From the IMG/VR virus record IMGVR_UViG_3300025086_000258, positions 1 through 23,353 of that record: a stretch of 23,353 bases of DNA; one strand, written 5' to 3'. Origin of the DNA: a virus. This document shows positions 2,825-21,353 of this stretch, piece by piece. The position numbers and the translations under genes are program-made. Position 1 is the stretch's first letter; each line of letters begins with the position of its first letter. Under the pieces are notes generated by a model. It ran no database searches. It saw only the letters and a program-made list of their open reading frames with translations, and was not told the DNA's origin.

Positions 2825-3011
2825 GACACCGCTCCAGAGAACTGGTTCCTATATGTTTTTTATATTCTGTTTTATCTATATGTCTGCTTGTTAGGTTTTC
2901 AGAAATGTTCGCATCTTGAAACGCGCCATCAGGTATCATTGCGTCCCATTCAGCTAACTTTCGATTAGACTCTTCTTTCTTTTTCCGTTGTAAAAGTTCT
3001 TCTTTAGGCAT
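2814..3011 (-). CDS. Hypothetical small basic protein, 65 aa
   Basis: I do not recognise the family. The N-terminal ~20 residues are strongly charged and probably helical (KEELLQRKKKEE), and the rest is polar without hydrophobic segments. The ATG at 3011 is preceded by AGGAG at 7 bases, a strong site. The gene starts 50 bases after the methyltransferase stop, which is the largest gap in this stretch, and ends 11 bases inside the next gene. The good ribosome-binding site and the operon packing support it as real. Confidence 0.7.
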   Translation of the reverse strand: MPKEELLQRKKKEESNRKLAEWDAMIPDGAFQDANISENLTSRHIDKTEYKKHIGTSSLERCRES

Positions 3012-3061
3012 GTATTTTCTCCTAACAAAGTCATATAAATTATAATTGACAATACAGACTT

Positions 3062-4096
3062 TTATGATTTTTCAATCATCCCTTTAATACATAATCCTAT
3101 ATTCATTGCTACCTGTGGCACAATAGCATTTCCTAATCCTTTAATTCTGTCCACCCGATTGGATACCCCATCAACCACTCTGTCCAAGCAGGGTTCAGTT
3201 TCCCACTGGGTTGCGCTGTTTCTTTCACTGCTGCACAAAGATATTTTTTGTCCTTCATGTGAGTATGCGATTTGCTCCCCACTGGACCTGTATCCTTGTA
3301 CTCCGATGCTCTGGGTGTAGGCCACATCTTCACTTGGTCGGCTAAGTTCGCCCCGAACTTCAGGTTGGGGTTGCTCTTGCTCACCCTGCGACCCTTTTCG
3401 TCCAACTGCCTCGGACCGCCCGTTACATCCGTTGTGCGCGGCGTTGCCCACATCTTCGGTTCCTGTGCCTTGTTCCACATCTCTACTGTGTTCGGGTCTA
3501 CTTGCTCCCTCAAGTTTGCTGGTCTGGTGCGACCCTTCCTTGCCTGTGTCGCTTGCTTTAAAAGAGCCTCTGGCGACCTCTGCGGCAAGTGGTCCATCGT
3601 GTTCGGCGTAGCCCAATATCCAGATTCGGTCGCGCTTGTGGCGGGCGCCGACACCGCTAGCTGGAACAACAAACGGTTTGACGGTGTAACCTTCGCCTTC
3701 CATTGCATGGAGTACGTTGTCCAGCCCCATAGAGATGTGTCCATAAACATTTTCGAAAACGGTAAAAGTCGGTCTTGTTTGTGCAACAATTCTAACGATG
3801 TGCGGGAAGATGTGGCGAGGGTCCGCTTCTCCTCTCCTTGCCCCGGCTTGACTAAATGGTTGACACGGATATCCTGCGGTGAGGATTCCGATGGGTTCTG
3901 GAATAAATCTTTTTGGGTCATTTGCTATCTCCTTAACATCATCAGCGATAGGTACGTTAGGAAAGTTTTGTGCAAGTAACTTTCTGCACCACGGCTCGAT
4001 GTCACAAAAAAGGACGGGCTTAGATAAACCCGCCCATTTGAAGCCGAGGGCAAAACCCCCGACCCCAGAACATAAATCAACATGCTTTAGCATCAT
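3062..4096 (-). CDS. DNA cytosine-5 methyltransferase
   Basis: It methylates C5 of cytosine using S-adenosylmethionine, probably to protect phage DNA from host restriction. All the main motifs are in one frame. The SAM-binding motif DLCSGVGGF is at residues 7-15. GYPCQPFSQAG is at 75-85, with the catalytic Cys at 78. FENV is at 114-117, and HKRDRIW at 153-159. The C-terminal RVDRIKGLGNAIVPQVA is at 314-330. Residues ~165-300, where the target-recognition domain belongs, are very hydrophilic, poor in hydrophobic residues and partly repetitive (DVGNAAHNG, DVAYTQSIG, IAYSHEG). That region is also covered by a second open frame, described separately. Two consecutive ATGs open the gene, and the first overlaps the upstream stop as ATGA. 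Base composition is unusual: 38 of 60 bases in 3361-3420 are G or C, against 17 of 60 in 2641-2700. Confidence 0.92.
   Translation of the reverse strand: MMLKHVDLCSGVGGFALGFKWAGLSKPVLFCDIEPWCRKLLAQNFPNVPIADDVKEIANDPKRFIPEPIGILTAGYPCQPFSQAGARRGEADPRHIFPHIVRIVAQTRPTFTVFENVYGHISMGLDNVLHAMEGEGYTVKPFVVPASGVGARHKRDRIWILGYAEHDGPLAAEVARGSFKASDTGKEGSHQTSKLEGASRPEHSRDVEQGTGTEDVGNAAHNGCNGRSEAVGRKGSQGEQEQPQPEVRGELSRPSEDVAYTQSIGVQGYRSSGEQIAYSHEGQKISLCSSERNSATQWETEPCLDRVVDGVSNRVDRIKGLGNAIVPQVAMNIGLCIKGMIEKS
3133..3921 (-). CDS. Overlapping-frame protein nested in the methyltransferase gene (262 aa, W-T-P repeats)
   Basis: A complete 262-codon frame lies wholly inside the methyltransferase gene, shifted by +1. 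Its ATG at 3921 has AAGGAG at 3929-3934, an ideal 7-base spacing. The protein does not look like chance sequence. It has an aromatic segment (LWGWTTYSMQW, 64-74) and three Trp-Pro motifs, YWATPN (102-107), MWATPR (157-162) and MWPTPR (199-204). A basic block, ARKGRTRPANLREQV, is at 127-141, and it ends near LNPAWTEWLMGYPIGWT (242-258). I associate this layout with proteins annotated in other phages and bacteria beside or within cytosine methyltransferase genes, but I know no established function. The stop is about 70 bases before the methyltransferase stop. The alternative is that an open frame simply results from methyltransferase codon usage. The Shine-Dalgarno and the repeats argue against that. 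Confidence 0.6.
   Translation of the reverse strand: MTQKDLFQNPSESSPQDIRVNHLVKPGQGEEKRTLATSSRTSLELLHKQDRLLPFSKMFMDTSLWGWTTYSMQWKAKVTPSNRLLFQLAVSAPATSATESGYWATPNTMDHLPQRSPEALLKQATQARKGRTRPANLREQVDPNTVEMWNKAQEPKMWATPRTTDVTGGPRQLDEKGRRVSKSNPNLKFGANLADQVKMWPTPRASEYKDTGPVGSKSHTHMKDKKYLCAAVKETAQPSGKLNPAWTEWLMGYPIGWTELKD
3929..3934 (-). promoter_or_regulatory. Shine-Dalgarno of the nested gene
   Basis: On the minus strand this reads AAGGAG and lies 7 bases before the ATG at 3921. In the methyltransferase frame the same bases encode Lys-Glu (residues 55-56). Such a strong internal site at ideal spacing in front of a long open frame is the main evidence that the nested frame is translated. Confidence 0.65.
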
Positions 4097-4377: not shown

Positions 4378-4590
4378 TTTACTTCCCTTCCTTTCGTTAA
4401 TAAGGTGGGTGGCTTTACGGCACTGGTGCCACCCAAACCAGCTAACGACCATTTATGGATGCCGTTAGTATGCCTTTAAATTGTTGTCGGGAAGAGCCGA
4501 GCCCCCGTTTTTTGTGCCCTAGTACGCACCAGGAACTATGGGCTCTTCCCTAATCAATACCTGCTCAAGATACTTGAACTACAGTACCGA
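4378..4590 (-). other. Structured intergenic leader with three hairpins
   Basis: This 213-base stretch between the SSB stop and the helix-turn-helix start has no gene. It holds three inverted repeats. GGGAAGAGCC at 4489-4498 pairs perfectly with 4541-4550 (10 bp), and its 42-base interior can fold again. CTAACG at 4442-4447 pairs with 4463-4468, with an inner CCAT/ATGG stem. TGGGTGGC at 4406-4413 pairs with 4428-4435, and it competes with a second stem, GGCAC/GTGCC, at 4419-4430. No U-run follows any stem on the minus strand, so these are not intrinsic terminators. A structured 5' leader, a small RNA, an RNA-processing site or operators are all possible. I recognise no known riboswitch or ribozyme core. 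Confidence 0.5.
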
Positions 4591-5244
4591 CTATTTCTGT
4601 GCCCAAGCTGGCGTAACGCCGCTCTGAGCCTGTTGGGCTGGCATCTGCGCATTCATGGCCTGTTGCACCTGCGGTGGCATAGGTGACAATGGTGAGCCCG
4701 CAGAGGCGCCTCCAGAGCCATTTGGTGCAACAAAGTCCTTACTGTCTGGTGACAAGAAAGTTTTAATTCTATTCTTGTCTGCATACTGTGGGTCATTCGA
4801 TTTCTCGATACCAACCACAAAACAAACTTCTAAACCCTGCAAATCCTCAACGCCATTGATTTGACGTTTGGCCTGTGCTTCTGGTGACATATCGTTTGCG
4901 TTTAGATTGTGACCACTGTTGACAATCTTCCTGATTGTATCAAGGCCAATCATACGAGCCTTTGATACGCCAGTAGATTCGTCAATAGCATCGCCATGAA
5001 CAAAAATATTCTGCCAGACCTTACGCTTGTCGTATTGACCTCCAACAATAGTCATTTCGATTGGCATCCATACTGCGCTGGTATGCGCTGACTTTTTAAA
5101 GAACATGGCGCTCTGAGAAAACTCAGGCATCATTTGGTCGCCGCCTTGAAACATCAAGACGCCTCTGACAATGGTGCCATCAGGAATAAGTGTTAATGGC
5201 TCATTGCTTCCGCTTGATACGGGTACTTCGTTTAGATTAAGCAT
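4591..5244 (-). CDS. Single-stranded DNA-binding-like protein (217 aa)
   Basis: It is predicted to coat single-stranded DNA during replication and recombination. Residues ~15-155 look like one beta-rich OB-type domain (LIPDGTIVRGVLMF at the start, VWMPIEMTIVGGQYDKRKVW in the middle, LEVCFVVGIEKS at the end). This is followed by a flexible tail rich in Gly, Pro, Gln and Met that ends GVTPAWAQK. The tail lacks the acidic DDDIPF tip of bacterial SSBs. A small protein encoded about 2 kb further on ends in a similar tip. The start at 5244 overlaps the upstream ATPase gene by 8 bases. The assignment rests on resemblance to SSB-like phage proteins found next to RecA-fold ATPases, and the context supports it. 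Confidence 0.72.
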   Translation of the reverse strand: MLNLNEVPVSSGSNEPLTLIPDGTIVRGVLMFQGGDQMMPEFSQSAMFFKKSAHTSAVWMPIEMTIVGGQYDKRKVWQNIFVHGDAIDESTGVSKARMIGLDTIRKIVNSGHNLNANDMSPEAQAKRQINGVEDLQGLEVCFVVGIEKSNDPQYADKNRIKTFLSPDSKDFVAPNGSGGASAGSPLSPMPPQVQQAMNAQMPAQQAQSGVTPAWAQK

Positions 5245-19860: not shown

Positions 19861-20961
19861 TTATAACTCCGCATCAAATCCTAATGCCGCAGAAGCATTG
19901 TTCCCATATAAAAAACCACCATCACCCTGTGTTCCGCTTACACTTCCAGAATTATATATAGAAACCGCGTTTTTATGAGAAAAAGCATCTAGAATAAAAT
20001 TATTAAAAGTATGCACCGCATAACCACCTATCATTCCATAATAATTTGACCCAGTTGTGTGAACGAGAGATGGGTTGGCTCTCATTGTTACAGGAAGTTG
20101 CAAAATTCCCTGCACATAACTAGAGGTGTAAAAAGAACCATTTGCTATATTTTTGTTTGCGCCAGAACCCTGACCTCCGCCAACAATTTGACAATAATAC
20201 CTCTGACACCCAGCCAACTCATCCCCAAACGAACGATGTTCAAACGGTGTGGCCTGTTCGCCTAGCTCAAGTTGTACGCCTGTGAGAAAAAAGTTTCCTG
20301 TTTGTGCGGCAATATTAACAGAGTCACTGTGTGCAAAATCATCTGTGCCACTATAAGCCCCCCAACCAGTATGAGGAGTGCCAGTAAAATCTGTACCAGC
20401 AGACAAAGTCCAAAATACATTAAATTCTTCTGTATTGTCATTCGCTATATTGCCTGATGTATCTCCATCAATAGTAATAGTTTTATATTCCCATGTGTTT
20501 GCTGACGATACCGTATAACTTTGCAAGTTACTACGAGGGCCTGTTGGTTGATAAAAAAGTATAGAGTGTTTTCCAGCTACAGGAGATTTTACCCAAAAAG
20601 ATAAAGTTACGCTTTTTGCATTAGATGTGCCGTAAGCTAATTGCTGAACATTTTGTCCTTCTAATTTTGTCTCAAGATACATAACTTCATCTGAGGCTTG
20701 TGCGCTTTCTGCTGTTGTCACTGCAACCTTTAAAGAATTTGAAAATCCATTACCAGAGGGATTATCTGTATCTTGTGTTACAGCTATAACCAATTCGTCA
20801 AAATTAGATTTTACAATAAGAAATCTATCTACTGTATAACCATTTGCAGTTGTCGTAGCATTTCTCTGGTCAACCTGCATCGCACCATTGATAATTAGAT
20901 TCCTGTTTGATAGGCTTGTTTGTGAACCTATCAGTGCGGCTAGTTCTGCTGCTTTACTCAT
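19861..20961 (-). CDS. Tail fibre/receptor-binding protein (366 aa)
   Basis: SNRNLIINGAMQVDQRN (residues ~18-34), followed by a GYTVDRF motif near 41-47, is a well-known start in phage tail fibre proteins. The central region (~50-240) resembles a carbohydrate-binding jelly-roll module. It contains VTLSFWVKSPVAGKHSI near 117-133, WEYKTITIDGDTSG near 156-169, and FFLTGVQLELGEQATPFEHRSFGDE, spread over ~223-247. The C-terminal ~120 residues are Gly, Ser, Asn and Tyr-rich and probably form the variable tip. It likely contacts host surface glycans. The ATG at 20961 overlaps the upstream stop as ATGA, with GGAG 7 bases upstream in the last codons of that gene. It is the longest fibre gene in the block. 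Confidence 0.75.
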   Translation of the reverse strand: MSKAAELAALIGSQTSLSNRNLIINGAMQVDQRNATTTANGYTVDRFLIVKSNFDELVIAVTQDTDNPSGNGFSNSLKVAVTTAESAQASDEVMYLETKLEGQNVQQLAYGTSNAKSVTLSFWVKSPVAGKHSILFYQPTGPRSNLQSYTVSSANTWEYKTITIDGDTSGNIANDNTEEFNVFWTLSAGTDFTGTPHTGWGAYSGTDDFAHSDSVNIAAQTGNFFLTGVQLELGEQATPFEHRSFGDELAGCQRYYCQIVGGGQGSGANKNIANGSFYTSSYVQGILQLPVTMRANPSLVHTTGSNYYGMIGGYAVHTFNNFILDAFSHKNAVSIYNSGSVSGTQGDGGFLYGNNASAALGFDAEL

Positions 20962-21353
20962 GCTAGGTCTCCGTGAATTGTAACGTATCCTCTTTCATCG
21001 TGATTCGTCCTGTTCGCTGAGGAACTTACATAATAAATTTCTAAGTCTATTGAACCAGAAGCATTTGTACCTTCAGTGGTATCAATGTTAAGAGAACTGG
21101 CACTTGCGCTACCATCGTCTGCCATACCTGAAACAGCATAGTTTGCAGATGAAAAACTGCTAGTGTAATTTAACCCAAAGTCTCCAGTACCGTCATCGTC
21201 TAGGGTAGAAACATTAAAACTATCGTTTATTGATGCACCATTTTGAGGTTTATCTATCCAGACCTTCGCACTTCCCCCTGCAACAAAGCTAGTAGCAATG
21301 CTGTTGTTCCCGCTGGCATCCTTCAGGGTGTTTACTCTCAGTTCGCTTGCCAT
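20958..21353 (-). CDS. Tail fibre paralogue D (131 aa), ends GDLA
   Basis: It opens with the fibre-type start SELRVNTLKDASGNNS and then has SAKVWIDKPQNGASINDSFN, near 28-47, and GTGDFGLNYTSSFSSANYAVSGM, near 55-77. The paralogue at 21760-22152 has the same order of motifs (SAKAW, NGTGDVTLSFTASLSNANYACSGM). It ends VTIHGDLA. The beta-rich, Ser, Asn and Asp-rich character suggests a virion surface protein, perhaps a short fibre or decoration. The start at 21353 shares a base with the previous stop, and GGAG lies 10 bases upstream inside that gene's terminal GDLA codons. Confidence 0.68.
   Translation of the reverse strand: MASELRVNTLKDASGNNSIATSFVAGGSAKVWIDKPQNGASINDSFNVSTLDDDGTGDFGLNYTSSFSSANYAVSGMADDGSASASSLNIDTTEGTNASGSIDLEIYYVSSSANRTNHDERGYVTIHGDLA

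Follow-up and report, generated by a model that had tools for sequence, protein, structure and literature searches.

A phage C5-cytosine methyltransferase gene with a conserved gene nested in its +1 frame, a candidate two-frame heterodimeric enzyme

The locus

The window analysed here is the whole 23,353-nucleotide stretch of virus record IMGVR_UViG_3300025086_000258, and the two genes under study lie on its minus strand. The outer gene, alpha (3062..4096, minus strand), encodes a C5-cytosine methyltransferase of 344 amino acids, a large domain with motifs I-VIII and X, which matches PF00145 (E 6e-39) and, among PHROG families, phrog_363. The inner gene, beta (3133..3921, minus strand), is wholly nested in alpha in the +1 frame, for an overlap of about 790 bases, and encodes a 262-aa protein that matches phrog_1008 (E 7e-26) and is proposed to be a small domain, i.e., target recognition plus motif IX. 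The beta start codon, an ATG at 3919..3921, lies across Asn-Asp codons of alpha, and upstream of it, with a 7-nt spacer, an AAGGAG Shine-Dalgarno sequence (3929..3934) lies within alpha Lys-Glu codons. An earlier note on this DNA had reported such a 262-aa frame, starting 7 bases after AAGGAG inside the methyltransferase gene, and its description was confirmed on the sequence.

Alpha contains motifs I, IV (PCQ), VI (ENV), VIII and X of the C5-cytosine methyltransferases (PF00145), in agreement with the earlier claim that the outer frame keeps intact methyltransferase motifs on both sides of the region in question. Motif IV, GYPCQPFS with the catalytic Cys78 (3851..3874), is invariant or nearly so in alignments A2 and A4. 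The motif VIII region, GARHKRDRIWIL, occupies 3614..3649, and the alignments and codon-position variation place the move of constraint to the inner frame beyond this point. There follows a hydrophilic linker, residues 168-304 (3185..3595), that is stop-free, near-neutral (outer dN/dS 0.92) and modelled as disordered (pLDDT about 30-45). The motif X region, RIKGLGNAIVPQ (3113..3148), is conserved in A2 and A4 and is aligned by hhalign to ordinary motif X. The AF2 model of alpha is confident at residues 1-165 and 314-343, and among its best PDB matches are M.HhaI (rmsd 1.7 A, 166 columns) and M.HaeIII, in each case over the catalytic domain only. The likeness to that domain is close, but M.HhaI and M.HaeIII carry the small domain, with the recognition region and motif IX, in the same chain, and there is no small domain in the AlphaFold model of alpha. 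When alpha was compared with ordinary C5-methyltransferases by hhalign, the aligned parts were motifs I-VIII and, separately, motif X only. A pattern scan for motif IX found it in none of the outer proteins of 83 representative relatives (chosen at less than 88% outer identity). Thus neither motif IX nor a recognition domain was found within the alpha chain, which has no IX pattern and is disordered over residues 168-304.

The translation of beta contains two W-A-T-P repeats (3604..3615 and 3439..3450) and a W-P-T-P repeat (3313..3324), and T160 and P161 of the second repeat are invariant in alignment A1. It ends with the near-invariant segment LNPAWTEWLMGYPIGWT (3148..3198), the probable motif IX equivalent. 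The three W-[A/P]-T-P motifs, an ARKGRTRPANL block and LNPAWTEWLMGYPIGWT had all been listed in the earlier note, and all are present. The motif IX pattern was found in 82 of the 83 inner representatives; an hhalign comparison of the beta profile with 12 ordinary methyltransferases gave a motif IX alignment that was not significant. No Pfam or NCBIfam family matched beta, even when 84 relatives were scanned, and there was no match among PDB sequences. Modelled alone, beta gave a poor result (pLDDT 59, pTM 0.25), and a fold search with this low-confidence model returned no usable structural match; such a solo model is what an obligate partner might give.

Several further features of beta were seen. 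Among the 83 representatives its length ranges from 177 to 374 aa and the number of x-x-T-P repeats from 1 to 5, with the variation in the middle region of alignment A1, as if recognition modules had been gained or lost. On the Paenibacillus polymyxa plasmid pAP1 (L213, about 2200-2510) the motif IX tail is tandemly duplicated, with inner-frame stops between the two GQLNPxWVECLMGFP copies. In the window, a 235-aa antisense open frame (3272-3979, plus strand) faces the pair and has a weak match to phrog_38519 (E 0.008).

Chance and selection in the two frames

The +1 frame is open for a run of 263 codons. A run of this length was reached in none of 2000 synonymous-codon shuffles of alpha (shuffle mean 94) and in none of 2000 codon permutations. 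The corresponding +1 stretch, from motif IV to motif X, contained 4-23 stops (median 15.5) in 22 ordinary C5-methyltransferases, and some of these enzymes had +1 open runs of up to 117-137 codons over motifs IV-VIII.

Codon-position variation was determined for 69 independent pairs. Variation in the outer-only stretches peaked at outer codon position 3 (0.265, 0.302); beyond motif VIII most variation fell at outer 1 (0.196), equivalent to inner 3, and the third outer position varied least (0.060). Frame-resolved substitution ratios, from 52 pairs, gave an inner dNN/dNS of 0.125 (CI 0.086-0.185) beyond motif VIII and an outer dNN/dSN of 0.92 (0.76-1.09). The earlier suggestion that the inner frame is the main target of selection past motif VIII is thus borne out (inner 0.125 vs outer 0.92). 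Over motifs I-VIII the inner ratio was 0.41 (0.22-0.67) and the outer ratio 0.19, both below 1. Synonymous-codon shuffling of the inner frame in 81 genes predicted about 422 outer stops, and none was observed. Because the outer frame stays free of stops despite its near-neutrality, both frames must be needed, and beyond motif VIII the outer frame apparently serves only as a linker.

The translation start of beta is also kept. The Lys codon of the internal Shine-Dalgarno sequence is AAG in 63 of 63 relatives, vs 191 of 419 Lys codons (46%) elsewhere in these genes, and the Asn codon that forms the beta ATG is AAT in 53 of 54 relatives; the sequences are related, so these counts are non-independent.

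Distribution of the pair

Searches with the inner protein only yielded 80 + 80 viral loci, with some contigs represented twice, plus 41 loci from bacteria or archaea. Each of these 201 loci had a C5-methyltransferase gene whose +1 frame held the inner relative, so the recurrence predicted in the earlier note was found. The carriers are viruses, bacteria of many phyla and one archaeon, and with automatic boundaries beta was fully nested in 82 of the 83 representatives. When genomes of two phyla were sampled, 20 of 398 and 3 of 395 had the family, again in +1. Named carriers include Paenibacillus larvae phages, Lacticaseibacillus phages and mycobacteriophage Nitzel, and the coliphages N15 (gene 58), K1ind3 and Bas70. 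Stops in the +1 frame of relatives, a lost internal Shine-Dalgarno sequence and neutral change in the inner frame, which the earlier note had named as evidence that would count against it, were not seen. Among the relatives examined, both frames show conservation and constraint, alpha is without motif IX, the motif IX pattern is in beta, and the +1 arrangement is universal.

One locus, L010, was considered as an exception to the +1 rule and rejected, since both frames shift jointly, at about 2480-2575. The joint shift is consistent with a single indel, either real, in a broken gene, or due to sequencing or assembly error. The viral contig L049 has tandem nested methyltransferase pairs (2829-3932 and 4549-4893), the second of which is cut by the contig end.

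Variants in which the pieces are separated

In two Rickettsiales relatives (L127 and L216) the LNPDWVEWLMGYP peptide is in the outer frame, directly before motif X, and the W-x-T-P segment stays in +1. Differences by codon position were 5/6/23 over motifs I-VIII, 27/4/6 from VIII to IX and 6/3/14 from IX to X, indicating that the frame under constraint changes at one domain border and reverts at the next. The in-line IX-X segment has 42.6% identity (E 1e-4) to the ordinary single-chain enzyme of virus Rctr41k, a match that links motif IX with the tail of beta. A search for further in-line IX-X copies gave mostly two-piece, i.e., two-frame, matches.

On an Embleya plasmid (L304, 840-2058) the division is different: alpha consists of motifs I-VIII, and the +1 ORF carries the W-x-T-P segment together with motifs IX and X. 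A further methyltransferase gene lies downstream of this split pair. In a Flavobacteriales relative (L109, 1954-2749) a separate beta ORF follows alpha, with no methyltransferase frame overlapping it. The occurrence of beta apart from alpha is a strong argument that beta is a real protein. The L109 alpha has its own nested motif IX, which looks decayed; the contig is a metagenome assembly and a possible chimera.

Discussion

We think it highly probable, from motif content and patterns of constraint, that the pair encodes a phage heterodimeric C5-methyltransferase from two frames of one DNA stretch, with alpha the catalytic subunit and beta the small domain. Alpha would fold as the large catalytic domain, composed of motifs I-VIII, a long disordered linker and motif X. 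Beta, we infer, would be translated from its own internal ATG and Shine-Dalgarno sequence on the shared message and would bring the small domain, namely the target-recognition region with its W-x-T-P repeats, and motif IX. The two would assemble as a heterodimer into the active enzyme, in which beta would read the target. The assignment of the two frames to two enzyme domains comes from the match between the motif split and the domain contents of solved enzymes, in which the large domain has most motifs and the small domain has the variable region and motif IX (PMC3404938). Further, when ordinary C5-methyltransferases are cut at a point after motif VIII and before the recognition domain, the fragments reassemble (PMC3404938, PMC5944983), making an alpha-beta heterodimer mechanistically plausible. 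The beta tail, LNPxWVEWLMGYPxGWT, is very probably the motif IX missing from alpha, given its position, its pattern and the in-line Rickettsiales bridge. Beta thus looks like the small-domain half of an enzyme rather than an unrelated passenger. Of the roles offered in the earlier note, a partner that sets specificity is the best supported, since alpha is without the recognition domain and motif IX and beta fills their position; an anti-restriction or regulatory role is not needed. The motif IX identity of the tail, again very probable, and the M.EcoHK31I precedent were points that the earlier note had missed.

The neighbours of the pair are phage recombination genes, for a Cas4-like exonuclease, a Sak4-like annealing protein and a Holliday junction resolvase, and virion genes; no restriction enzyme was recognised among the neighbouring proteins scanned. 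From this recombination gene setting and the lack of a recognised adjacent restriction gene we infer that the enzyme would most likely be an orphan methyltransferase, shielding phage DNA from host restriction. Elsewhere in the window, a short DNA segment (20873-20972) matches, at 83%, the tail fibre genes of Puniceispirillum phage HMO-2011, which hints that the phage is marine and HMO-2011-like.

In M.EcoHK31I (Lee, Kam and Shaw 1995) the small ORF reportedly lies within the large one in a different reading frame. In the description of that system given in PMC3404938 (citing Lee 1995), two polypeptides are required, the large one with motifs I-VIII and X and the small one with motif IX. The present pair resembles M.EcoHK31I (YGGCCR) in the motif split so described and in the nested small ORF: beta lies inside alpha in another frame, alpha has motifs I-VIII and X and no IX, and beta has the probable IX. 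The two differ in that, by the same description, the M.EcoHK31I recognition domain is predicted to be in the large subunit, whereas here the evidence favours the nested subunit. M.EcoHK31I also comes from a bacterium and has a partner nuclease, whereas ours is encoded by a phage and no nuclease was recognised close to it.

Following that placement of the recognition domain in the large subunit (PMC3404938, citing Lee 1995), beta might supply motif IX only, with target recognition left to the alpha linker. We consider this improbable, since the alpha linker is near-neutral (0.92) and predicted to be disordered while beta is strongly constrained over the same DNA, and since in the Rickettsiales relatives, where motif IX is in alpha, the IX-less +1 segment is still constrained. 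Alternatively, two programmed frameshifts, one to +1 after motif VIII and one back before motif X, might give a single chain, and it is true that the domains follow one another on the DNA exactly as in an ordinary enzyme and that the frame changes where one domain meets the next. Such frameshifting is distinctly less likely again: the internal Shine-Dalgarno sequence and ATG are kept, the inner frame is constrained over motifs I-VIII too, where a frameshift product would have no use for it, active selection holds the outer linker open, and L109 has a separate beta gene. That beta is an independent protein, an anti-restriction protein or a regulator whose overlap with the enzyme is incidental, could draw on the absence of any Pfam or NCBIfam family for beta, families being thus unable to give its function; we regard it as very unlikely indeed, given a C5-methyltransferase at every locus examined, an alpha missing precisely the parts present in beta, the tail that resembles motif IX and the in-line IX variant. 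Finally, an inner frame that is only an untranslated by-product of alpha codon usage, an idea encouraged by the fact that +1 over motifs IV-VIII is often open from composition alone, is refuted computationally by the shuffles, the stop counts of ordinary enzymes, the inner constraint and the kept Shine-Dalgarno sequence, and is given almost no weight.

The proposed heterodimer can also be compared with other split or overlapping systems. M.AquI (CYCGRG) is likewise a naturally split, two-subunit C5-methyltransferase (PMC3404938), but its split is within the variable region and motifs IX and X are both in the small subunit, whereas here motif X is in alpha; the Embleya relative resembles M.AquI more than the window pair does. 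The same nested pair, with the same families, has been deposited as overlapping genes for Paenibacillus larvae phage Redbud (gp50/gp51, "g50 internal gene") and for K1ind3 (ORF30/ORF29, "Mte8-like"). These Paenibacillus larvae and K1ind3 pairs are annotated only, and the arrangement receives no discussion in the papers found. "Totally overlapping" C5-methyltransferases, with a second ORF lying over the enzyme gene in a different frame, have been noted in Streptococcus phages 5093 (5093-group) and MM1 and in Tn5252 (PMC5601072). The 5093 and MM1 overlaps were rejected as cases of the same arrangement: the outer enzymes are ordinary single chains with motif IX in-frame, and in both, stops interrupt +1 beyond motif VIII.

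The M.EcoHK31I-type split, represented by that single characterised enzyme, and the overlapping pairs deposited for Paenibacillus phages and K1ind3 are, then, already known. What appears to be new, in the literature examined, is how widely the arrangement occurs, the evidence that both frames are under selection, the assignment of the recognition region to the nested subunit and the variants with parts moved between frames. It seems likely that the nested two-frame methyltransferases are an old, widespread and largely unannotated class in which the small domain, recognition region and motif IX together, is in +1 of its own catalytic subunit and can move between frames at domain borders. Long same-strand overlaps conserved over great evolutionary distance are, to our knowledge, rare in bacteria and phages. 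This overlap is kept in phages as different as marine phages and coliphages, as well as across bacterial phyla, and its pieces occur apart in natural variants.

Many genes annotated as one cytosine methyltransferase would, on this evidence, specify one half of the enzyme, and the half that probably sets specificity lies in the other frame. Beta is usually omitted from annotation, and its family is missing from Pfam and NCBIfam. With the probable specificity half hidden in this way, attempts to predict methylation targets from these genes will fail. The laboratory phages N15 and Bas70 offer a clean system for studying how one message gives two subunits, and for swapping nested halves to follow the effect on the target.
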